Below are positions 1 through 12,078 of a DNA stretch of 12,078 bases, in pieces (within the stretch, counting starts at the first letter, position 1; every line of letters begins with the position of its first letter). The stretch covers positions 1 to 12,078 of the forward strand of contig DUVT01000060.1 in the NCBI GenBank assembly GCA_012840905.1, given 5' to 3'. Source of the stretch: Acholeplasmataceae bacterium (lineage in GTDB: Bacteria > Bacillota_I > Bacilli_A > ML615J-28 > CAG-698). Made by a program: the position numbers and the translations under genes. The notes under the pieces were generated by a model. It was not told the origin of the DNA. It did not search any database and was given only the letters and a program-made list of their open reading frames with translations.

Positions 1-935
1 AATTTATTACGATGAGCCATCTCTTCTTTTAACATCAATTCTGAGATTTCCTTGATGTTTGGCTCTAAAATAAATTCACCAGCGATTTCGCTTCCGCGTC
101 TTAGAGTTCTTGAAGCTTCTTTTTTAGCTTCTTTAGATTTGAATTTATAATTAGCTAATTGCTTTTCATATTTAGTAAGAGTGAATTTTTTTAATTCACT
201 TTCCAATTTACTAATTAATTTTGTGTTTTCAATAACTTTTTTATAAGCATTCATTGTATCCCCGTGAGGAATATGAAGTAATGTAATATAGTTTTCAATT
301 GCTACTTTTCCATCATATTCTTCAAGGAACTTACGAACCTTATCAACTTCTTCTTCCCATCTAATACCTTTACCAATAACTTCTAAATCTGGATTTGCTT
401 CTTTGAATTTAGTTCTATCGCGTTCTAAAGCTCCAATTGTTGCTTTTACATTTTCCTCGCGAACTTTTTTAGTTGCTTCAATTTGTTCATGAAGTGCTCT
501 AATGCTTTCTTCTGAAACTTTTTTTAATGCTTTATGTTCTTCAGAATTTATAAATGCTTCTAATTCTTCAACTTTCTTATCATATACTAATGATTTATCA
601 AAGAATCTTTTTGCTCTAGCCTGAATTCTTGGTAAAGATTTAATTCCTTTAATTACATATTTAGGATTTAGTTTACGAAGTGGAATCCCATAATATAGGG
701 CACTTCCACTTGTTGGAGGGTAAAGTTGAAGAATAACTCTACCTAAAGTTGACTTACCACAGCCACTCTCACCAACTAAACCAAATGTTTCTCCTCTGTA
801 TATTGTAAAGGAAATATCTTCATTAGCTTTAACACTATATACTTCCCTTTGGAAAATATGTTTCTTTTTTAAAGGGAAATATTTTTTCATCTTTCTGACC
901 TCAATTAGAGGTTCTTTTCTCATTTTATCAGTCAT
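1..935 (-). CDS. oppF: Oligopeptide ABC transporter ATPase OppF with a large insertion (3' end off window)
   Basis: This is the second ATPase of the Opp importer and powers peptide uptake on the cytoplasmic face. I translated 311 residues from the ATG at 933-935; the frame runs off the left edge. That start overlaps the oppD stop by 8 bases and has AGGTG six bases upstream; an in-frame ATG at 921-923 is a weaker alternative. Residues 9-50 look like an OppF N-terminus, and Walker A GESGCGKST is at 55-63, followed by LYPPTSG. A normal OppF would reach its Q-loop (FQDP..SLNP) roughly 40-45 residues later. Here residues 84-311 are instead Lys/Glu-rich, helical and coiled-coil-like (strongest about 119-180 and 238-285), and no Q-loop, signature or Walker B appears before the edge. 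Mycoplasma OppF proteins are, as I recall, also unusually long (about 800 residues), so a lineage-specific insertion is more likely than a broken gene. Confidence 0.88.
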   Translation of the reverse strand, partial: MTDKMRKEPLIEVRKMKKYFPLKKKHIFQREVYSVKANEDISFTIYRGETFGLVGESGCGKSTLGRVILQLYPPTSGSALYYGIPLRKLNPKYVIKGIKSLPRIQARAKRFFDKSLVYDKKVEELEAFINSEEHKALKKVSEESIRALHEQIEATKKVREENVKATIGALERDRTKFKEANPDLEVIGKGIRWEEEVDKVRKFLEEYDGKVAIENYITLLHIPHGDTMNAYKKVIENTKLISKLESELKKFTLTKYEKQLANYKFKSKEAKKEASRTLRRGSEIAGEFILEPNIKEISELMLKEEMAHRNK

Positions 936-1914
936 GTCTTGCACCTACTTTCGGGTAGAGACATCTTACATAATGTCCTGGTTCTACTTCAATCATTTCT
1001 ATTTCTTGAGAAACACATTTCTCTGTTCTGTACTTACATCTTGGTGCAAACTTACAACCTTTTGGTAAATTTAGCGGATGTGGCACAGACCCTGGAATAA
1101 CTTCTAATTTTCCTTTAGGTGTATCTAACCTTGGAATAGAAGCCATTAAGCCTTCAGTATATGGATGTGAGTATTTAGTGTTTGGATCAAAGATCGTAGA
1201 ACTTGGAGCCATTTCCACTATTTGCCCACAATACATAACAGCTACATCATCTGCCATTTCATTAATTACACCTAAGTCATGTGTTACGAATAAAATTGAA
1301 GTACCATACTCTTCTTTTAAATCATTCATTAATTTTAAGATTTGAGCTTGGATTGTTACGTCAAGTGCAGTCGTTGGCTCGTCTGCTATTAACAACTTAG
1401 GACGGCAAGCTAAAGCCATCGCAATCATTACACGTTGGCTCATTCCCCCAGATAGTTGGAATGAATATACATCAACGATTTTTTCCGGGTTAGAAATACC
1501 AACTGCTTCTAATAATTCGATGGATTTATTTAAAGCTTGTTTCTTATCCATCCCTTGATGTAACATTAATACTTCACTAATTTGTCTTCCAACTTTGAAG
1601 ACAGGGTTTAAACTTGTCATCGGTTCTTGGAAAATAATAGAGATTTCATCTCCACGAATAGATCTTAGTTCATCGTCGCTCATTTCTGATAATACTTTTC
1701 CATCGAAAGTAATTTTACCTTGATGAATTTTTTGATTCTCTTCAAATAAGCGTAATATACTCATCGCAGTAACACTCTTACCAGAACCACTCTCACCAAC
1801 AAGTCCTAAAGTTTTTCCTTCTTCTATACTCAAAGACACACCATTGGCTGCCTTGATAATACCACGTTTAGTAGTAAAATATGTATGCAGATTTTCAATT
1901 TCTAATAATTTCAT
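928..1914 (-). CDS. oppD: Oligopeptide ABC transporter ATP-binding protein OppD
   Basis: OppD hydrolyses ATP, with OppF, to drive peptide import through OppB/OppC. At 328 residues it has normal family length and all motifs: Walker A GESGSGKS (40-47), Q-loop Q96 in [10 protein letters not shown], signature LSGGM (154-158), Walker B LLIADE (174-179) and switch His212. The C-terminal oligopeptide/dipeptide domain has Pro-His-Pro (278-280) and four cysteines at 287, 293, 300 and 318 (C-X5-C-X6-C-X17-C). That spacing fits the [4Fe-4S] site known in some OppD/DppD C-terminal domains; a cluster here is inferred. The ATG at 1912-1914 has AGGTGA six bases upstream, next to the oppC stop (gap 10 bases). 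The gene ends TGA followed directly by an in-frame TAA, and the stop lies inside the oppF start region, suggesting translational coupling. Confidence 0.95.
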
Positions 1915-1924
1915 ACATTTTCAC

Positions 1925-4282
1925 CTATCTTTCGCTGGACTTCGGATCCATTGCTTCTCTTAAACCATCTCCTATTAAGTTAACACTTAAAGCAGTTGCG
2001 ATAATAAAGAATGCAGGAATTATCCAAAGCCACCAATAATTTTTTAATGTTGTCATACTTTGTGCACCGGTTAGCATATTACCCCAAGATGGTTGAGGAT
2101 ACATAACACCGAACCCTAAGAATGATAGTCCAGATTCTGTTAATAATGCACCAGCATATGATAAAGTTGTATTAACAATAACAACATTAACTACATTTGG
2201 TAGGATGTGACGTATAATAATATGTCGTTCCTTTACACCAAGTGCTTTAGCTGCTAAGATATAATCTTTTTCACGCTCAGCAAGTATTTGCCCACGCACA
2301 AGTCTTGCAAGTCCTGGCCATGATAAGATACCTAGGATGAACATAATCATAAATACACGTTCTCTTTCATTAATGCTTGATGCGTTATGAACAATACTTG
2401 AAAGCGTCATGGCAAGTGGTAAGAATGGAAAGGCACTAATGATTTCCCCGAAACGCATTAATACGTTATCTAACCATTTACCATAGAATCCAGCAATTAG
2501 ACCTACTGTTAAACCGATGATTAGCGATACAACAACCGCTACAGCAGCAACAGATAGTGTCATGCTTCCACCAGCAACTATACGTTTATATACGTCAGCG
2601 CCAACTTGGTCAGTACCAAATAAATATCCCTTATTTCCCCAAGCTCTTATAGTTCCATCATTTTCAATTGCTATACTATTGAAGAAGTTTGCAATAACTT
2701 TCTTCGAAGGTTTAATATCATCTGGCATATTTAAATGGCCAAGTGTATTCTTGAACCCCATAACATGAACTGTACCATTATCTTCAAGTAGAGTAATATG
2801 GTACATTCCGCCAGCACCATCAATAATTTTCTTATCTTCAAATACATCATCAACTGTATTTAATCTATTTTCAGATGAGATTTCACCCCATCCAACGATT
2901 CCACCATTTTCATCAATATAAAATCCATTTTTAGATGAAGCAAATATTTTTTCAATACGATAGCCTCTTTCTTCAGCTGTTTGAGATAAAATTCTTGGAT
3001 AATCTTCTTTGACTAATCCTCCAACGCCGACAATAATAAATCTATTGTCTTCTAGTTCGTATGCAACGTGTTCAAACATAATATGAACATCCACAATTTT
3101 TGCATTAGTAACTTCTTCATCTACATATTGCATTAAGAAATCATAGCCATAGTATTCAGGATCATCATCTTCAGTTTCTGGCTCTTTGAGAATTGCGTTT
3201 TCCCAAGGTTCATTTCCAGTTTTTCTATTCCTGTACTGAATTCTATCTGAGAAATAACGAAGTTCTAGTGTTGCACCATCTTCTTCAACTAAACCAAGTT
3301 CAGAAATCAATTCTTCTTTAGTAAGAACTAATCTATCACTTAAGTTGTAAGCAAGGTTATCTTCAGCACTATATTTCCATCTTAATCCGCCTTGCTCTGT
3401 GTAACGCAACATTACTTCAAGGGCATTAAATGTTTTAGCTGGATTATCTAACTCTTTAGTTCTTACAACACCCCAAGCATAAATATTGTTATTTTCAGTG
3501 AATACTATTGTGAATTGATCTCCTGCATAAACACGCTTGATTGGATCTTCTTCAATTTTTGATACTACTTCATTAGGATACTTTGTTCTTGCACTTGGAT
3601 TAAAGTACGCTTCAACAGATTTTTTAAACTGTTGTTGTTGGTCAGTCCCTGGATTAAATACTGGGATTTGTGATTGATGGAAAGTATTACTTCCCCAACC
3701 AATTAATTCACCATTATTAGTCAGAGCAACAACATGTCGTGATCCAACTGATAGTTGAACAATATCTCCTACTCTATCTTTTACTTCAGCTGGGACTTTC
3801 TTAACATCATCGATATTAGCCCCCCAAACATAAATTTTATCTTCATTTGAAATTGCAACAGTAAATGCTGTTCCAATTCCAATTAAATATTCGCCATCAA
3901 CTTCTTTAATACCTTCTTTTTGAAGTCCTCTAGGAACTTTTGTATAACCAAATCCTGGTTCAATATGTCTTTGTGAAGGCTCTAAATATGAAGCATTAAA
4001 TTCAATTGTATTGCTGCCAATAACTACAAATAAGATTACTGCAGCAAACATTACTAATCCTACAATTGCAACTCTATTTCGAATAAATTTTCTAAAGATT
4101 TGTCTTGAAGGACTGATTATTTCTGATTCAATTAGATCTTTATTTTCAATGAGTTCTTCCTCATTTTTGTTGATTAATTCTTCTTCTAATTGTTTCTTGT
4201 GTCTTCCAAATCCAAATAAACTAATAAAAATATTTTTAAATGCTTTACCGATTTTACTTAAAAAACTATCTTCTTTTTTCAC
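1925..4282 (-). CDS. oppC: OppC permease with a seven-repeat RCC1-like propeller inserted in the first extracytoplasmic loop
   Basis: This is the second membrane subunit of the Opp importer, 785 residues against roughly 300-350 for usual OppC. Order: a charged cytoplasmic N-terminal extension (about 1-60, with an acidic helical stretch at 31-56), the OppC start motif RKFIRNRVAIVGL (64-76), TM1 (about 71-90), RCC1-like repeats (about 120-550), then normal OppC resuming at FGTDQVGADVYKR (555-567). Further membrane helices follow, with the EAA coupling loop at 671-697 (EKDYILAAKALG...RHILPN) and the usual end SVNLIGDGLREAMDP. Removing the insertion leaves about 355 residues, a normal permease. 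One frame runs throughout with no internal stop and no visible change in base composition. The start is GTG (4280-4282), fixed by AAGGAGGG seven bases upstream that overlaps the oppB stop. The insertion should face outward, where the OppA lipoprotein docks. Its function is unknown; docking, substrate selection or binding another surface partner are guesses. Confidence 0.95.
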   Translation of the reverse strand: MKKEDSFLSKIGKAFKNIFISLFGFGRHKKQLEEELINKNEEELIENKDLIESEIISPSRQIFRKFIRNRVAIVGLVMFAAVILFVVIGSNTIEFNASYLEPSQRHIEPGFGYTKVPRGLQKEGIKEVDGEYLIGIGTAFTVAISNEDKIYVWGANIDDVKKVPAEVKDRVGDIVQLSVGSRHVVALTNNGELIGWGSNTFHQSQIPVFNPGTDQQQQFKKSVEAYFNPSARTKYPNEVVSKIEEDPIKRVYAGDQFTIVFTENNNIYAWGVVRTKELDNPAKTFNALEVMLRYTEQGGLRWKYSAEDNLAYNLSDRLVLTKEELISELGLVEEDGATLELRYFSDRIQYRNRKTGNEPWENAILKEPETEDDDPEYYGYDFLMQYVDEEVTNAKIVDVHIMFEHVAYELEDNRFIIVGVGGLVKEDYPRILSQTAEERGYRIEKIFASSKNGFYIDENGGIVGWGEISSENRLNTVDDVFEDKKIIDGAGGMYHITLLEDNGTVHVMGFKNTLGHLNMPDDIKPSKKVIANFFNSIAIENDGTIRAWGNKGYLFGTDQVGADVYKRIVAGGSMTLSVAAVAVVVSLIIGLTVGLIAGFYGKWLDNVLMRFGEIISAFPFLPLAMTLSSIVHNASSINERERVFMIMFILGILSWPGLARLVRGQILAEREKDYILAAKALGVKERHIIIRHILPNVVNVVIVNTTLSYAGALLTESGLSFLGFGVMYPQPSWGNMLTGAQSMTTLKNYWWLWIIPAFFIIATALSVNLIGDGLREAMDPKSSER
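2633..3925 (-). other. RCC1-like beta-propeller domain inside OppC (residues about 120-550)
   Basis: Seven repeats follow the RCC1 pattern: hydrophobic strand, turn, (H/x)-x-x-A-(I/L)-(T/S/E)-x-(D/N)-(G/N), strand ending in WG or a variant. Their cores start near residues 133 (TAFTVAISNEDKIYVWG), 174 (GSRHVVALTNNGELIGWG), 248 (GDQFTIVFTENNNIYAWG), 396 (degenerate, ending VGVG), 443 (ENGGIVGWG), 486 (GMYHITLLEDNGTVHVMG) and 527 (NSIAIENDGTIRAWG). Start-to-start spacing is 41, 74, 148, 47, 43 and 41 residues, so the basic unit is about 41-47 with extra material after repeats 2 and 3. Classical RCC1 propellers have seven blades, so the count fits a closed ring. The repeats were recognised by eye, not by a profile search; repeats 1, 2, 3, 5, 6 and 7 are clear and repeat 4 is weak. 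Confidence 0.85.
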
Positions 4283-4288
4283 TGTTAA

Positions 4289-4296
4289 CCCTCCTT
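4289..4296 (-). promoter_or_regulatory. Ribosome binding site setting the GTG start of oppC
   Basis: On the minus strand AAGGAGGG lies seven bases before GTG (4280-4282). It overlaps the TAA of oppB (4295-4297). No in-frame ATG competes with such a site, so the non-ATG start is well supported, and the overlap suggests coupled translation of oppB and oppC. Confidence 0.85.
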
Positions 4297-5290
4297 AATC
4301 AAACTTAACTCTAGGGTCTACTAATGCATAAGATATGTCCATGATAACATTAGCGACTAAACCTAAGATTGCATAGAAGAAATTCATAGCTAATACAACT
4401 GAGTAGTCTCTAGCAATTAATGCTTGAATTAATGTTTGACCTATTCCACTTATAGCGAATACGTTCTCTGTAATCGCAGAACCACCAAACACTGCAACAA
4501 GACTACCTGCAACGATAGTAACAACCGGTATTAAAGCATTTCTAAATGCATGTGAATAAATAACTACTTTTTCGCGTAAACCTTTAGAACGTGCTGTTCT
4601 AATATAATCTTTCTTTAACACTTCTAACATAGCATTTCTTACATATCGGATAGTTCCCGCCAAACTTCCGATTGTTAGCGTAAGTACTGGTAAGAACAAG
4701 TGCTCCGCATATTTAAAGAATGTCTCAATGAAATTCATATCCGATCTAACAGCAGGCAGACCTCCAAATTGGAATATTCCAAGTGAAACCGGGAATATAA
4801 AGATTAACCCCATACCAATAAAGAATGTTGGCATTGAGGTAAATACAAGCGAGGTGACTTGCCATGTCGAATCATATAATGAGAACCTCTTAACTGCAGA
4901 TTTTATTCCGATAAATATTGAAGCAATAAAAGCTATTGTTATCGATATGACGTTAATTAATATCGATATTTTTAGAGGTTGACCTAGTACTTGAGTAACT
5001 GGTTTCTTGTGAGAAAGTGAGTAACCCAAGTCACCACGGATAGTTCTACCTAACCAATTCACATATTGAATTGGAAGTGGTTGGTCTAATCCGAATTCCT
5101 TACGTTTTTCATCTATGAATTGCTGACGTAATTCTGGGTTTCTAACATATTCTTCTTGAGATAATACATCACCAAACGCAAGTTCAATAGGATCACCTGG
5201 TACTAGCTTTACTACTGTAAACAATATTATTGATATCACAATAACGACTGGGATTAAAGATAAGAATCTTTTTAATAAATATTTACCCAT
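4295..5290 (-). CDS. oppB: Oligopeptide ABC transporter permease OppB
   Basis: OppB is the first membrane subunit of the peptide importer and forms the pore with OppC. It has the family layout: TM1 after the start MGKYLLKRFLSLIPVV, the VPGDP motif, an extracytoplasmic loop ending GDLGYSLSHKKPV, then helices with the EAA coupling loop near residues 222-255 (KKDYIRTARSKG...HAFRNALIPV), the GG..ITE motif, and the typical tail ALVDPRVKFD. I chose the start at 5288-5290 (331 residues) because GGAGG lies five bases before it. The ATG at 5300-5302 would add MEEI, but it has no ribosome site and itself contains the Shine-Dalgarno. There is no large insertion here, unlike its partner OppC. The gene is followed by oppC after 12 bases. 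Confidence 0.94.
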   Translation of the reverse strand: MGKYLLKRFLSLIPVVIVISIILFTVVKLVPGDPIELAFGDVLSQEEYVRNPELRQQFIDEKRKEFGLDQPLPIQYVNWLGRTIRGDLGYSLSHKKPVTQVLGQPLKISILINVISITIAFIASIFIGIKSAVKRFSLYDSTWQVTSLVFTSMPTFFIGMGLIFIFPVSLGIFQFGGLPAVRSDMNFIETFFKYAEHLFLPVLTLTIGSLAGTIRYVRNAMLEVLKKDYIRTARSKGLREKVVIYSHAFRNALIPVVTIVAGSLVAVFGGSAITENVFAISGIGQTLIQALIARDYSVVLAMNFFYAILGLVANVIMDISYALVDPRVKFD

Positions 5291-5310
5291 AATTTCCTCC
5301 ATATTTGTTT

Positions 5311-5445: not shown

Positions 5446-7377
5446 TTAGTCTGCCCACTCGATATCACAAATATCATTAGCCCAGCTCCATACTGGAGTT
5501 GTTTGTAGACCTTTGATTCTTGTGTTATATACGTCAAAGTATTCGTTAGAGTATAGTGGAATATTTGGTAATAATTCATTCCATCTAGTTACGAATTCAA
5601 CGAATTTTTCTTTGAACTCATCTTTTTGAGTAGGGTCTAATCTTCTCATTTCTTCTGTTAATTGATCGATTATCTCATCTTCTAATCCACCTGGGTTGTT
5701 AGTTGTTCCAGCCCAGTCTGAATGCCATGAATAATATGGATCATAAGCAGATGTGAAGTTTGTAGCTAAGTTGAAGCTGTGGTATGTTCTTTCGCTTTCG
5801 CTTAATGAAGAACCATAATAGTAATGATTTAATAGTAGGTCGAAGTCTTCAGTATTAGTGAAGTTGAACTTCAATCCAACTTTCCAAGCTTCTTCTTGTA
5901 ATGATAAGTTAATTAAGTTACCAACTTCTGCAGAAGCACTTAAGTGGTTGATTTCTAATGCATTACCATCTTCATCATGACGTAAGTAAGTATAATCACT
6001 CCTAGCTTTTGTAGGATCAAATGGAGTTTCTCCATCTGCTTCAAATTGATATGGACTTGCGTCTAATTCTTCGTTTGCTTTAGCAACGTTTAATGTATAG
6101 TTAGTTAATGCTTCTTCTAATTCAGCCTTAGTTTCTTGGTAGAACCATTGAGCTTCACCATAAGGACCGTTAACTAATGAACCGAATCCTCCTAAGAACT
6201 GATCTAAGAATACGTTTCTATCGATTAGATATGCGATTGCACGACGTACTTCAGCAAATTGAGAAGGACCCCAATATTGAGCAAACGCCATTAATCCGTA
6301 TCCGTTTCTGAAGTAAGAAACTAATTCTGCGTTTTCAGCGTTTTGAGCTGCTTCAATTTTCGCACCTTCAATAACACCACTTACGATGTCGATTGTACCA
6401 GCGATAACTTGGTCAACGTCAACTTCGCTGTTAACATAAGTAATTTCGATTCTTTCAATCTTAGGTTTTTTACCTTCATGATTTGTCTTGAAATTAGGGT
6501 TAAGTTCTACAGTTGCAGTATCGTTAGCGAAGCTTACGAATTGGTATGGACCAGCAGTAACTGTAGGCTTATATCTTTGACCATCTTCAGCATTTACTGT
6601 TTCTTTAATTGTGTCAACAATTGATTTGTCAGTATCTACTGCAGTAATGTATGCACCATTACCATCATCTTTAATGTCAAAGCCTGGTAAATAAGTATCT
6701 AAATCAATTGGACCAGCTGATACAGAAGCAACTTCATAGAAATATGGTAAGTTTTCTGCAGCGATCGTTAATGAGAATTCAAATTCTCCTAATAATCTAA
6801 CACCAGCAAATGGTTGATCTAATACTGTATAATTTTCATCATATACAGTTTCCATCACTGGATCACCATTCTCATCAAGAACAGGTTCGCCATCTTCATC
6901 AAGTTTTGGCTGTTCAGTTCCTTCACCTTTATTGAATTTAGTATAACCAACAAGATCGATACCTGCACTAGCTGTTGTAGCAATAGATAACCAATCCTTT
7001 GAAGAATATAGTAACATTTGAGCTACATAGTCCTTTGCAGTGATTCTTTCTCCGTTGTTCCATTTTAGATCGTCTTGGAGAACAAATCTATATGTCTTGT
7101 TTCCTTGAGCATCTTCTGTTGTTGTTGGCTCATCAACTAGTACAGCAGTAGTGTCCCAAACGAACTCACCGAATTCGTCTTCAACTAATGTACCATAACC
7201 ATGGATTAAGTCACGTACATATCTATCATATGCACTGTTTGAGAAACCAGCAACAAAGTCACCACTCATTTTTGGTGTACCAACTCTAAGAGTTCTAGTT
7301 TTGCCGCCACATGCACTAAGTACTAAAACAGCAACAAATGCAAGTGCCAAAACGAAAACTTTTCTAAACAATTTCAT
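5446..7377 (-). CDS. oppA: Peptide-binding lipoprotein OppA (family 5 extracellular solute-binding protein)
   Basis: This lipid-anchored receptor captures peptides outside the cell and delivers them to OppB/OppC. The 643-residue protein has a lipoprotein signal: MKLFRK, a hydrophobic stretch, then lipobox LSAC with lipidated Cys23. The family-5 binding-protein layout is visible: YRFVLQDDLKWNNGERITAKDYV (read in two parts, 96-108 and 109-118), AGPYQF near 275-280, the hinge-side YGLMAFAQYWGP and AIAYLIDR (380-387), and a C-terminal W..ELLPNIPLYSNEYFDVY region. An acidic loop at about 150-180 has a tandem 8-residue repeat. ATG at 7375-7377 follows a GGAGAGG-type site. It is the first gene of the operon and has its own consensus promoter. 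Substrate specificity cannot be read; oligopeptides are inferred from the operon and the family. Confidence 0.93.
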   Translation of the reverse strand: MKLFRKVFVLALAFVAVLVLSACGGKTRTLRVGTPKMSGDFVAGFSNSAYDRYVRDLIHGYGTLVEDEFGEFVWDTTAVLVDEPTTTEDAQGNKTYRFVLQDDLKWNNGERITAKDYVAQMLLYSSKDWLSIATTASAGIDLVGYTKFNKGEGTEQPKLDEDGEPVLDENGDPVMETVYDENYTVLDQPFAGVRLLGEFEFSLTIAAENLPYFYEVASVSAGPIDLDTYLPGFDIKDDGNGAYITAVDTDKSIVDTIKETVNAEDGQRYKPTVTAGPYQFVSFANDTATVELNPNFKTNHEGKKPKIERIEITYVNSEVDVDQVIAGTIDIVSGVIEGAKIEAAQNAENAELVSYFRNGYGLMAFAQYWGPSQFAEVRRAIAYLIDRNVFLDQFLGGFGSLVNGPYGEAQWFYQETKAELEEALTNYTLNVAKANEELDASPYQFEADGETPFDPTKARSDYTYLRHDEDGNALEINHLSASAEVGNLINLSLQEEAWKVGLKFNFTNTEDFDLLLNHYYYGSSLSESERTYHSFNLATNFTSAYDPYYSWHSDWAGTTNNPGGLEDEIIDQLTEEMRRLDPTQKDEFKEKFVEFVTRWNELLPNIPLYSNEYFDVYNTRIKGLQTTPVWSWANDICDIEWAD

Positions 7378-7540: not shown

Positions 7541-7555
7541 TGTAAAGCGCTTACA
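7541..7555. promoter_or_regulatory. Candidate LacI/CcpA-family operator between oppA and trpS
   Basis: TGTAAAGCGCTTACA, extended to ATGTAA-AGCGC-TTACAT, is a near-perfect palindrome of the LacI/CcpA type and has the highest GC content in this intergenic region. It differs from a classical 14-base cre by one extra A in the left half. It sits 20 bp upstream of the trpS -35 box and about 85 bp upstream of the oppA -35 box, so either gene could be the target. Confidence 0.6.
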
Positions 7556-7646: not shown

Positions 7647-8639
7647 ATGAATATAGTATTATCAGGGGTTAAGCCAACGGGTATTCCTACTTTAGGAAAT
7701 TATATTGGAGCATTAAGAAATTTTGTAAAGTTGCAAAATGAAATGCCTAATGCTGAGTTTTTCTTTTTCATCGCAGATTTACATGCAATTACAGTTCCTC
7801 AGGATCCAAAAGTATTAAAACAAAATATCAAGAACTTAGCAGCCCTTTATTTAGCTTGCGGTCTTAATCCAAAAAATTTAACATTATTTATTCAGTCCGA
7901 AGTTAAACAACACTCAGAAATGGGATACATTATGCAAAGCATCTCATATATGGGTGAATTAGAAAGAATGACCCAATATAAAGATAAGGTTCAAAAACAA
8001 GTAACAGGAGTTACTTCTGCACTCTTTACATATCCAACTTTAATGGCTGGAGATATTTTATTATATGATACAAGATATGTGCCTGTAGGTGATGACCAAA
8101 AACAACATTTAGAACTAGCTAGGGACCTTGCAATTCGCTTCAACAATCGCTTCGGAAATACATTTAGAGTTCCAGAAGAACTAATTAGTAAAACTGGTGC
8201 AAGAATTATGGACTTACAAAATCCAACTAAAAAGATGGATAAATCAGATGATGCTAATAAAGGTTGTATCTTTTTATTAGAACCAATTAATTCGATTAAG
8301 AAAAAGATTAAAGCAGCAGTTACAGATAGCGAAGCAGTTGTTAGATATGATAAAGAAAACAAACCTGGAATTTCAAATCTTATGACTATCTACTCGGCAT
8401 TAACTAATTTAAGCTTTGAAGATATCGAATCTAAATATGAAGGTAAAGGATACGGAGACTTTAAAGGTGATTTAGCAGAGATAGTTGCAGCTGAAATTGA
8501 AGCAATTCAAAACAAATTTAACGAAATCATCTCTTCTCCAATGCTAGATGAATTATTAGATAAAGGAAGAGAAAAAGCAACTATGCTAGCACAAAGAAAA
8601 ATTCAAAAAGTCTATAAAAAATTAGGGCTTGGTAGATAA
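7647..8639 (+). CDS. trpS: Tryptophanyl-tRNA synthetase
   Basis: Class I aminoacyl-tRNA synthetase that activates tryptophan with ATP and loads it on tRNA-Trp in the cytoplasm. At 330 residues it is the normal bacterial length. The HIGH-type motif appears as PTLGNYIGA (14-22). The active-site regions FFIADLHAITVPQDP, IQSEV, MGELERMTQYKDK and VPVGDDQKQHLELARDL are intact, and the KMSKS loop is KMDKS (196-200) inside GARIMDLQNPTKKMDKSDD (184-202). The C-terminal YEGKGYGDFKGDLAE block (264-278) is typical of the Bacillus-type enzyme. The ATG has AAGGAG six bases upstream. It is transcribed divergently from oppA and convergently with tyrS, and appears to be monocistronic. Confidence 0.96.
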   Translation: MNIVLSGVKPTGIPTLGNYIGALRNFVKLQNEMPNAEFFFFIADLHAITVPQDPKVLKQNIKNLAALYLACGLNPKNLTLFIQSEVKQHSEMGYIMQSISYMGELERMTQYKDKVQKQVTGVTSALFTYPTLMAGDILLYDTRYVPVGDDQKQHLELARDLAIRFNNRFGNTFRVPEELISKTGARIMDLQNPTKKMDKSDDANKGCIFLLEPINSIKKKIKAAVTDSEAVVRYDKENKPGISNLMTIYSALTNLSFEDIESKYEGKGYGDFKGDLAEIVAAEIEAIQNKFNEIISSPMLDELLDKGREKATMLAQRKIQKVYKKLGLGR

Positions 8640-8646
8640 TAATATT

Positions 8647-8678
8647 AAAGACGGTTCATTTTTAGAACCGTCTTTTTT
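8647..8678. terminator. Bidirectional terminator between trpS and tyrS
   Basis: AAAGACGGTTC / GAACCGTCTTT forms a perfect 11-bp stem with a 7-base loop (8658-8664). The plus strand has a T-run at 8673-8678, so it is a good terminator for trpS. The tyrS stop codon (8677-8679) overlaps the end of this T-run, and tyrS transcripts enter the same stem from the other side, where the T-tract is weaker. Confidence 0.88.
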
Positions 8679-9933
8679 AATGTTTTATTAAATAGTAATT
8701 TTTCTTACCACGTTTAATAATAGTAAATTTACCTTCAATTGCATTTTCTTTAGAAACTATAAAGTCAAATGAGTTTTGAACTTCGCCATTCACAGAAATT
8801 GCATTGTTTTTTAGAAACTCTCTTGCTTCTCTTTTTGATGATGCAGCTTTAACTTCTACAAGCAAATCAATAATATTCTTATCTTCTTTTGCTTCAATCG
8901 AAGGAACATCCTTAAAACCAATCGCAATTTCGCTTGCATCTAAACTTCTAATATCTCCACTAAATAAAACTTCACTAATCTTTTTAGCTTGTAAATACGC
9001 TTCTTTTCCATGAACAAATGTAACCACTTCTTCAGCTAATACTTTTTGCGCTAAACGTTCATGTGGAGCTTTATTAAATTCCGCTTCAATCTTTTCAATC
9101 TCTTCTTTACTTAAGAATGTATAGTATTTTAAGAATTTAATTACATCTGCATCAGCGGTATTAATAAAGAATTGATACATTTCATATGGTGTAGTTTTTT
9201 CTGAGTCTAACCAAACAGCACCACTTTCTGTTTTACCAAACTTTGTTCCATCACTCTTTGTAATCAGCGGGATTGTTAAACCGTATGCTTTTGCATTGCT
9301 ACCTTCAACTTTACGGATTAGATCCATTCCAGCAGTAATGTTACCCCATTGGTCTTGACCACCTATTTGCATTTCACATTTCAATATTGGATCTTGATAC
9401 ATCTTTAAGAAGTCAATACTTTGCATGATCATATATGAAAATTCTAAGTAAGTTAAACCAGTTTCAAGTCTTGATTTAACCGAGTCTTTACCAAGCATTA
9501 CATTAACGCTGAAATGCTTACCGTAATTACGCCACATATCAATAGCAAGCATACTTCCTAACCATTTATAGTTATCTACAAAGAATGCTGTTTTATCGTC
9601 AAAAGGTATGAACTTTGAAAATTGCTCTTTAAATAAATTAGTCCATTTTTTTACAACTTCTACATCATTTAGGCTTCGTTCACTACTTTTACCACTAGGA
9701 TCACCAATTAGACCTGTCCCACCACCAGCTAGGGCAATGATACGATGGCCAGCTTTATGGAATCTAAGTAGAGTAATAATAGGAAGAAGCGAACCAATAT
9801 GTAGACTATCTGCTGTTGGATCAAACCCACAGTATAAAGTAATAGGTCCTTCTTCTAGTCTTTTTGCTAAATCTTCTTCATTTATAATATCATAAACTAG
9901 TCCACGCCATTTCAATTCTTCTAATAATGTCAT
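8677..9933 (-). CDS. tyrS: Tyrosyl-tRNA synthetase
   Basis: Class I aminoacyl-tRNA synthetase that charges tRNA-Tyr. The 418 residues match the Bacillus-type TyrRS. Tyrosine pocket and HIGH motif: Y34 in LYCGFDPTADSLHIGS, with the motif HIGS at 45-48. GGTGLIGDPSGKSSER (71-86), YLEFSYMIMQ (162-171) and GGQDQWGN (191-198) are all conserved. The KMSKS loop is KFGKT (231-235). A C-terminal S4 RNA-binding domain covers about 352-415 (SSKREAREFLKNNAISVNG, 366-383). ATG at 9931-9933 follows AGGAGGTT (9941-9948). A T-box leader precedes it, so expression should rise when tRNA-Tyr is uncharged. No clear separate promoter is seen, so it may be co-transcribed with the ccpA-like gene upstream. Confidence 0.97.
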   Translation of the reverse strand: MTLLEELKWRGLVYDIINEEDLAKRLEEGPITLYCGFDPTADSLHIGSLLPIITLLRFHKAGHRIIALAGGGTGLIGDPSGKSSERSLNDVEVVKKWTNLFKEQFSKFIPFDDKTAFFVDNYKWLGSMLAIDMWRNYGKHFSVNVMLGKDSVKSRLETGLTYLEFSYMIMQSIDFLKMYQDPILKCEMQIGGQDQWGNITAGMDLIRKVEGSNAKAYGLTIPLITKSDGTKFGKTESGAVWLDSEKTTPYEMYQFFINTADADVIKFLKYYTFLSKEEIEKIEAEFNKAPHERLAQKVLAEEVVTFVHGKEAYLQAKKISEVLFSGDIRSLDASEIAIGFKDVPSIEAKEDKNIIDLLVEVKAASSKREAREFLKNNAISVNGEVQNSFDFIVSKENAIEGKFTIIKRGKKNYYLIKH

Positions 9934-10157: not shown

Positions 10158-11144
10158 CTATTTAGTTGACCCTCGCCAAATTACTTGATAATCAACTTGT
10201 AAATTTGCCGGTTGTTTCTCGTCTTCATTTTTCATAAGTTCTGTTAAATGAGCCATTGCTTTATTCCCAATTTCATAAATAGGTGTTTCGACACATGTTA
10301 ATTTTGGATTTGAAAGAACAGCATATCTTGTGTTTTGGAATCCGATTACTTGTAGGTCGTCAGGAACTTTATAGCCCTTGTTCATTGCAATATTCATAAA
10401 TGAGATTGCCATTGAGTCCCTAACAACTAAAACAACTTCAGGGATGCCCTCTTCAATAATCTCAGTAAATTGTGGTTCATTAATACTTAAATCTCCACTT
10501 GAACGAACAATGTTAGCATCTAGTCCTGCTTCTTCCATTGCTCTTCTATAGCCTTTTTCTTTTAACTCATTAACAGTATACTTATGTTCTGTACTAATAA
10601 ACATAATATCTTTATTACCACGAGAAATCATCTCTTTAGTAATATCGTAAGCACATTTCTCATAATCAATACCAACACTACCAAATTCTTCAGTAGGAGA
10701 AATTTGATTTACAAAGACTACAGGTACTGGAGTATTTCTAATGTGTTCGATTGTTTCTTTAGTGATTTCATCGTTCATTAAAAGGATTCCATCAACACTT
10801 GAAGCAATTACTTCACTCCATACCTCAGAAGCAAGATTCGGGTCATTATTTGTGAACAAGCGAATAGTATAGCCAAATTTTTTGGCACTGTCATCAATAC
10901 CAGCAATCATCTCTGCAACACTTGCACGAGAAATTTGCGGTATAACAATTGCAACTGTGGTAGATCTACGACTAGCTAAACCTCTTGCATTAGCATTTGG
11001 TTTATAGCCCATTTCTTTAATTATTTTTAAAACTCTCTTTCTTGTTGATTCCTTAACTTTTTCAGGATGGTTAAGGACACGAGAAACAGTTGCTAAGCTT
11101 ACGCCAGCAGCTCCTGCAATATCATAAATTTTTGCTTGATTCAT
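10158..11144 (-). CDS. ccpA: LacI-family transcription regulator, CcpA-like
   Basis: DNA-binding regulator with a LacI-type helix-turn-helix (IYDIAGAAGVSLATVSRVLN, 6-25), a hinge helix at NARGLASRRSTTV (52-64, with Leu56 in the usual minor-groove position) and a periplasmic-binding-protein-like sensor domain to residue 328. The hinge and the following AIVIPQIS...IAGIDDSAKKFGY segment resemble CcpA of Bacilli closely. Gene order supports this, since tyrS, ccpA and murC lie in the same region in Bacillus subtilis. CcpA with HPr-Ser-P represses or activates carbon-responsive genes at cre sites; that role is inferred here. The ATG at 11142-11144 has GAGGGTG five bases upstream. The stop abuts the tyrS T-box leader. 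Another LacI-family regulator is the alternative. Confidence 0.8.
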   Translation of the reverse strand: MNQAKIYDIAGAAGVSLATVSRVLNHPEKVKESTRKRVLKIIKEMGYKPNANARGLASRRSTTVAIVIPQISRASVAEMIAGIDDSAKKFGYTIRLFTNNDPNLASEVWSEVIASSVDGILLMNDEITKETIEHIRNTPVPVVFVNQISPTEEFGSVGIDYEKCAYDITKEMISRGNKDIMFISTEHKYTVNELKEKGYRRAMEEAGLDANIVRSSGDLSINEPQFTEIIEEGIPEVVLVVRDSMAISFMNIAMNKGYKVPDDLQVIGFQNTRYAVLSNPKLTCVETPIYEIGNKAMAHLTELMKNEDEKQPANLQVDYQVIWRGSTK

Positions 11145-11221: not shown

Positions 11222-12078
11222 TTACATTTTTCCAATAATACTGCCAATATACTTGTCAATATTTCCTGCTCCTAAAAATAAAATTACTTTATTGTTTAAA
11301 GTTTTAAAGTATTTAATATCTTTTTCGCTAAACGGTTTTGCATTAGAAAAAATATTAAAAATTTGTCTTTCTAAATCTTTATTATATCTTTCGCGTTTGG
11401 ATGTGAAAGTTGATGCTAAGTATAAATTCACATCTTTAAAGACTTCTCTAAATTCGTTTTCTAAAGCTAAAGTTCTTGAATAAGTATGTGGTTGAAAAAT
11501 TACAATTAACTCTTTTGTAGGGTGTTTTTGTTTTATTGCCTGAAATAATGCATCAATTTCTTTAGGGTGATGAGCATAATCATCAATAATAATATTATCA
11601 TAATATAGATGTTCTTCCATTCTTCTAGATGGTTTTTTATATGTTATTATTAAATCTTGAATTAAGTCAAAATCAAGTCCACATAAATAATAAACCCCAA
11701 GTGCAGCTAAAAAATTATAAATCATATATTCACCTGTGAACGGAAGTATAAACTGATAAATTTCTCCTAATACATTTACTTTTATTGTATACCCATTATT
11801 GTGAGTTTCTAAGATTTCCGCCCAAATATCAGCATTTTTATTAAATCCAAATGTTAACTTATTTTTATGAATTATATATTTAGTATTTATATCATCATAA
11901 TTAATTATTAACTTCTTTGTATTTTTCGCTACCTTTTGAAAGGACTTTATTACTTCATCAAAATTTTTAAAATAATCTGGATGATCAAAATCTATATTAT
12001 TAATTATTAAATAATCATAAGTATATTTTAAGAAATGATCTTGGTATTCGCAAGCTTCAAATATAAAATAATCATAAT
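11222..12078 (-). CDS. murC: UDP-N-acetylmuramate--L-alanine ligase MurC (5' part off window)
   Basis: MurC adds L-alanine to UDP-N-acetylmuramic acid in cytoplasmic peptidoglycan synthesis. I read 284 residues in one frame from the right edge to TAA at 11222-11224; the N-terminal UDP-binding domain and P-loop lie outside. Visible marks: EACEYQDHFLKY followed by YLIINNIDFDHPDYF (middle domain), RRMEE (the RRF region), IIDDYAHHPKEI (start of the C-terminal ligase domain), IVIFQPHTYSRT, and the terminal ILFLGAGNIDKY. These features separate MurC from MurD/E/F. The segment usually reading G-x-H-N-x-x-N is GEYMIYN, lacking the usual His-Asn pair. An internal ATG at 11723-11725 is not the start, because the frame and homology continue upstream. 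Its presence argues for cell-wall synthesis. Confidence 0.93.
   Translation of the reverse strand, partial: YDYFIFEACEYQDHFLKYTYDYLIINNIDFDHPDYFKNFDEVIKSFQKVAKNTKKLIINYDDINTKYIIHKNKLTFGFNKNADIWAEILETHNNGYTIKVNVLGEIYQFILPFTGEYMIYNFLAALGVYYLCGLDFDLIQDLIITYKKPSRRMEEHLYYDNIIIDDYAHHPKEIDALFQAIKQKHPTKELIVIFQPHTYSRTLALENEFREVFKDVNLYLASTFTSKRERYNKDLERQIFNIFSNAKPFSEKDIKYFKTLNNKVILFLGAGNIDKYIGSIIGKM

Follow-up and report, generated by a model that had tools for sequence, protein, structure and literature searches.

A predicted seven-bladed RCC1 ring in the OppC permease of an oligopeptide importer from an Acholeplasmataceae bacterium

In the dipeptide importer Dpp of Escherichia coli, the B subunit pairs with D and the C subunit with F (DppC-DppF), and the TM1-TM2 regions of the permeases are periplasmic. 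The DppB scoop, with TM1 on one side and a short helix on the other, inserts into the DppA cleft. These features are described in the accessible part of PMC12136057. RCC1-type rings are known from other proteins. BLIP-II, a ring of the same fold, binds beta-lactamases (PDB titles), and the Hepatoplasmataceae have proteins with slight RCC1 similarity, which might be host-interaction proteins (accessible part of PMC10928387). The original prediction knew of no described peptide importer with such a domain in its permease. The open-licence papers listed by the searches, judged from their listings, did not contradict this and gave no description of an RCC1-permease fusion, which may be described elsewhere.

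The oppC frame and its operon

The window (the whole stretch of 12,078 nucleotides analysed) contains oppA, oppB, oppC, oppD and oppF in one operon-like run, with oppF cut by the contig end. The ORF list gives oppC as one uninterrupted GTG-start frame of 785 aa, running from 4282 down to 1925. Read from the sequence, AGGAGGG lies six bases 5' of the GTG, and the gene begins 12 bases past oppB and ends 10 before oppD. The genes are as follows.

5446..7377, minus strand: oppA, lipoprotein-like binding protein of 643 aa (SBP_bac_5 match; lipobox by eye)
4295..5302, minus strand: oppB, with the scoop region kept (Pfam, alignment)
1925..4282, minus strand: oppC with the predicted RCC1 ring, 785 aa, GTG start (ORF, Pfam, AlphaFold2 model)
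928..1914, minus strand: oppD, of ordinary length (ORF, Pfam)
3..944, minus strand: oppF, first 314 residues only, running off the contig start (ORF, Pfam)
3..671, minus strand: first part of the OppF insert, which lies between Walker A and the Q-loop; start position approximate (no Q-loop in the 314 residues; homologous inserts)

Several other elements were observed around the operon. The palindrome TGTAAAGCGCTTACA (window 7541-7555) lies between oppA and a TrpS-like gene and resembles LacI-family operators by eye; a LacI-type gene is found at 10158-11144. TGTAAACGTTTACA occurs upstream of oppA in loci L043, L049 and L050. A shared catabolite operator for the RCC1-type operons was rejected, because such sites lie upstream of only 3 of 45 oppA genes and a stricter operator pattern had 0 matches in the window. 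The TrpS-like gene (within 7647-9933) adjoins the opp operon in the window and in L108 and L112, and in the latter two a Spx-like gene comes after it. The order trpS-opp-spx in B. subtilis is similar. A T-box leader (RF00230, 9978-10161, minus strand, 99.2 bits, E 2.3e-21) is located upstream of a TyrS-like gene. A partial MurC-like gene, named by eye (11222-12076, minus strand), hints at peptidoglycan precursors, though the related contig P0011 is labelled Acholeplasmataceae.

Anatomy of the OppC protein and its predicted ring

The Pfam analysis agreed with the claim of a normal OppC split by an insertion within a single uninterrupted frame. OppC_N (PF12911) matched residues 57-89 (29.5 bits, cut-off 23.9), and BPD_transp_1 (PF00528) matched residues 590-781 (114.2 bits, cut-off 26.4). 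The best NCBIfam model was Opp4C (NF045476), with 310.8 bits under the curated 350, and the insert splits the match. In the fold search, the permease part matched the OppC chain 8z21_B. Matches to two RCC1 families had been proposed for the insertion; RCC1_2 (PF13540) scored well above its cut-off (90.5 bits against 22, E 3.9e-26), whereas PF00415 stayed under it (16.8 against 21.7). PF25390 was also under its cut-off (97.4 against 150). The landmarks were placed as anticipated: TM1, put at about 71-90 from the letters, is helix 70-92 in the AlphaFold2 model, FGTD is at residues 555-558, and window positions 2633-3925 correspond to residues 120-550. The parts of the protein are listed below.

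4007..4282, minus strand: cytoplasmic N-terminus and TM1, residues 1-92 (OppC_N 57-89; helix 70-92)
3884..4006, minus strand: collar that links TM1 to the ring, residues 93-133, including P109 and P117 (homologue conservation)
2636..3883, minus strand: predicted RCC1 ring, residues 134-549, seven blades and extra subdomain (Pfam, model, fold search, repeats)
3821..3883, minus strand: blade 1, residues 134-154 (xG site, model)
3692..3763, minus strand: blade 2, residues 174-197 (xG site, model)
3470..3541, minus strand: blade 3, residues 248-271 (xG site, model)
3107..3460, minus strand: extra alpha/beta subdomain, about residues 275-392 (model secondary structure; absent in compact homologues)
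3026..3097, minus strand: blade 4, residues 396-419, the most degenerate (model, repeat comparison)
2885..2956, minus strand: blade 5, residues 443-466 (xG site, model)
2756..2827, minus strand: blade 6, residues 486-509 (xG site, model)
2636..2707, minus strand: blade 7, residues 526-549 (xG site, model)
1928..2635, minus strand: FGTD segment and rest of the permease, TM2-TM6, residues 550-785 (BPD_transp_1 590-781; 8z21_B fold match)

The propeller expected from structure prediction of OppC alone appeared in the AlphaFold2 model, which has seven three-strand blades, with a pLDDT of 92-98 per ten-residue block and of 80-91 at residues 291-320. The modelled ring aligned with BLIP-II chain residues 51-310 in the fold search. 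The window protein has seven xG sites (W, M or V before G) at residues 153, 196, 270, 418, 465, 508 and 548 (465 read from the sequence), corresponding to the seven OppC-RCC1 repeats, which are spaced 41-45 residues in the compact homologues. By a loose site test, all seven sites are present in 150 of 167 homologues; the degenerate site 4 alone is missing in 16, and L069 is without sites 4, 5 and 7. As modelled, the insertion is a seven-bladed closed RCC1 ring.

The original prediction of about 430 residues with seven RCC1-like repeats was right in the number of repeats; however, in the model about 120 of these residues (roughly 275-392) fold as an alpha/beta subdomain of their own, placed between blades 3 and 4. 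The compact homologues (about 607-637 aa) are without it. In OppC-RCC1 proteins of 1072-1144 aa (L107:6857-10291, P0016, P0027 and P0035), the extracytoplasmic part is larger still. The extra subdomain and these long forms show variation of the outer part from lineage to lineage. Conservation is lower in the ring (1.95 bits per column) than in the permease domain (3.04), and the conserved columns of the ring are mostly structural repeat residues. Outside the repeat pattern, the strongest conservation is at the base, in the two collar prolines (P109 kept in 99% and P117 in 97% of weighted homologues) and in the last blade by the FGTD join. Sequence and model together make it almost certain that this protein is a normal OppC with a complete seven-bladed RCC1 ring in its extracytoplasmic TM1-TM2 loop, the location originally proposed.

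Spread and origin of the fusion

Of 8000 candidates scored in the protein search, 989 matched, and both PF00528 and PF13540 were present in all of the 120 matches listed (120 of 989). The scan of genome contigs kept 80 loci, of which 51 are RCC1-type (L021-L071; L065 shows the ring end only) and 29 are plain; 51/80 is no prevalence, because the loci were drawn by searching for this fusion. OppA is encoded upstream in 50 of the 51. The survey of OppC homologues for loop insertions thus revealed a recurrent design in several classes. The carriers belong to Erysipelotrichia, Mycoplasmatota, Peptoniphilaceae and Clostridia, and include the isolates Erysipelothrix inopinata DSM 15511, Anaerococcus vaginalis ATCC 51170, A. 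nagyae, Peloplasma aerotolerans, Acetivibrio ethanolgignens and Anaerosporobacter faecicola. At least 5 of 40 relatives of the window's genome have fusion frames (G003, G011, G021, G022 and G026). A class survey detected the compact ring in 14 of 395 genomes at E 1e-20, which is a lower bound because neither the copy in the window nor the G011 copy was detected.

The original prediction would have failed if the insertion were an assembly join. An assembly chimera of an RCC1 gene with oppC is conceivable in an assembly of 308 contigs. However, the protein cluster (identity rounded to 100%) has 19 member sequences on 2 contigs, and a 55% identical full-length relative in another genome has the same flanking genes. 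The 51 further loci with the fusion, one of them on the complete Erysipelothrix inopinata chromosome, rule out such a join, whose chance is vanishingly small.

This OppC is the only protein with RCC1_2 matches in the assembly of the window (82% complete), and 0 of 14 controls matched PF13540; the PF00415 search of this genome found nothing, with its controls also negative. In five of five isolate genomes, all RCC1_2 matches fall in a single frame, which is the oppC of this type of operon. Besides it, one or more further OppC-like frames are present in every one of these genomes, with matches to the permease part only. In the OppC tree of the last 228 residues (insert left out), all RCC1 rows fall on one side of a branch. 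This side had 57 of 105 rows in the first tree (SH-aLRT 89). In a reduced tree, for which 13 of the 105 rows were dropped (7 long-branch or distant plain rows and 6 near-duplicates), it had 54 of 92 rows (bootstrap 95, SH-aLRT 83, branch in 97% of 200 bootstrap trees). The tree fits one gain of the ring, although the sample itself was obtained by a search for the fusion. Outside OppC, and apart from short-contig pieces such as P0126, the relatives with a ring coverage of 75% or more, both bacterial and eukaryotic, are at 19-28% identity, and a recent gift of the ring from a eukaryote has no support. The OppC tree puts G003, G021 and G022, of the window's family, among Clostridia; whereas the OppF tree puts G003 (L112), the one tested there, beside the window's relatives. 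A transfer of the operon between classes may have occurred.

A helical insert between Walker A and the Q-loop of OppF, which the original prediction had not covered, as it had not the extra subdomain inside the ring, has its beginning in the window. It was found in 44 of 46 measurable RCC1 loci vs 0 of 19 plain loci (OppF was not measurable in five of the 51: L028, L053, L056, L058 and L064); these are not 44 events, because the ring and the insert each seem to go back to a single shared origin. Strict coupling of the two is ruled out by L021 and L022, which lost the insert and kept the ring according to the OppF tree, where one of the 47 insert rows (L060_4572) is a different ABC protein. A fold-library search of the insert gave a list filled by ATPase chains and is uninformative on the fold of the insert. 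The predicted ring in OppC and the helical insert in OppF set this importer apart as a subclass of its own among the Opp type I ABC oligopeptide importers. Long ATPase inserts are also present in Opp systems without RCC1. A second Opp system was observed in nine relatives (L101-L106 and L109-L111), whose OppC of 440-917 aa has a long insert at the corresponding position between TM1 and GTD, with no RCC1 repeat pattern and, in the three scanned, no Pfam family. Its OppD has 209-445 residues from the Q-loop to LSGG in eight of the nine, vs 59, and the ninth locus, L109, has a long stretch in OppF instead. The TM1-GTD loop of OppC looks like a hot spot for domain insertion from these comparisons.

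Possible roles of the ring and comparison with known systems

The roles named in the original prediction (lid, OppA platform, adhesion or sensing) stay inference. Our best guess, a tentative one and the simplest role, is that the ring at the OppA seat might serve as a permanent platform for binding proteins or peptides. In favour of it are the conservation at the base of the ring, the upstream position of oppA in nearly all RCC1 loci and the binding of proteins by rings of this fold such as BLIP-II. The conserved proline collar after TM1 and the five-residue join to FGTD would mount it stiffly beside this seat, as the pseudo-symmetric counterpart of the B-subunit scoop motif. The ring could then hold or align loaded OppA, or larger cargo, above the translocation path. 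OppF, the ATPase expected on the OppC half, bears the helical insert; because the ring occupies the loop that holds the scoop in DppB, but in the C subunit, the outer ring and the inner OppF arm should share one half. The RCC1-type importer may be an extra, specialised system next to ordinary Opp systems. Among 24 chosen rows, the OppA of 16 RCC1 operons has common short inserts absent from 8 plain OppA. The scoop region of OppB is kept in the window and in the 12 other RCC1 operons that were aligned. The ring therefore need not stand in for the scoop, and a replacement of the scoop was ruled out. This, and the lower conservation of the ring compared with the permease domain, speak against the platform.

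Co-variation was tested in 39 operons, thinned to 26. The partial correlation of distances for OppA and OppB, whose contact is known in Dpp, was 0.39, with 0 of 2000 permutations as high; that between ring and OppA was 0.12 (292 of 2000), and special ring-OppA co-evolution was not significant, a weak negative because the distances are large and 26 operons are few. The ring and OppA thus co-vary no more than the rest of the operon, which is consistent with a ring that captures a target outside the operon (an extracellular peptidase, envelope material, or a host or neighbour protein) with OppA not its partner. Such a ring would place the importer at a peptide source. This reading is possible, if on the unlikely side. 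BLIP-II, the closest solved ring, is a stand-alone inhibitor gripping foreign enzymes, and the lineage-variable outer part also fits; however, no such partner was seen, although the flanking genes may encode one, and retention of the fusion across quite different habitats argues against one host target.

The only pair of the six tested, besides OppA-OppB, to stand out at all was the ring and the OppF insert (0.21, 55 of 2000, uncorrected). This, the joint presence of the two in most measurable RCC1 loci, and their place on the expected C-F half (by the Dpp pairing in the accessible part of PMC12136057) would suit a two-sided receptor-importer, whose outer ring reads an extracellular ligand while the OppC-OppF half signals to a cytoplasmic coiled OppF arm. 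One importer would then both feed and inform the cell. The single joint origins, the loss of the insert alone in two loci, and the inserts of Opp systems without RCC1 make this quite improbable. In a lid or selector role, peptides, or the tails of long ones, would come up against the ring before loading or in its course, and the ring would set the length or type of the cargo; this role is doubtful. The ring is positioned by the loading cavity, judging from the Dpp geometry (accessible part of PMC12136057), and the other OppC-like frames of the isolates suggest that this OppC may be specialised; however, no peptide-binding site was identified among ring columns that conserve mostly repeat structure. 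Nucleotide exchange on a small GTPase, as by RCC1 exchange factors, is unlikely because the ring is extracytoplasmic. A permease with such a ring raises a directly testable question about the way in which binding proteins and cargo come together with the permease at the membrane, and the named isolates make experiments possible now.

Compared with permeases of the Opp4C type (NF045476; E. coli OppC, 8z21), this OppC has about 460 residues between TM1 and FGTD and scores under the curated threshold. The rings of BLIP-II, UVR8, HERC and RCC1 differ from it, in that here the ring forms part of a membrane permease, with a transmembrane helix on either side, has an extra subdomain after blade 3 and is under the PF00415 cut-off. 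Like the DppB scoop (accessible part of PMC12136057), it is located in the TM1-TM2 loop of a permease subunit on the outer face; whereas it is in the C subunit and is a whole folded ring, and OppB retains its own scoop region. The Mycoplasma-type Opp (NCBIfam MMSYN1_0165 to 0168) also has enlarged ATPases, its OppF model having 649 positions, in which the two matched ends are far apart; however, its OppC model has only 307 positions and is therefore without the ring. The Hepatoplasmataceae proteins are likewise RCC1-like propellers in mollicutes, although no permease is mentioned for them in the accessible part of PMC10928387. The parts are known, and their combination is new as far as the open-licence literature was searched. 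The permease of a textbook peptide importer can, as modelled, bear an entire ring of seven blades that is anchored on both sides, and such a ring-bearing permease has been kept across several bacterial classes.
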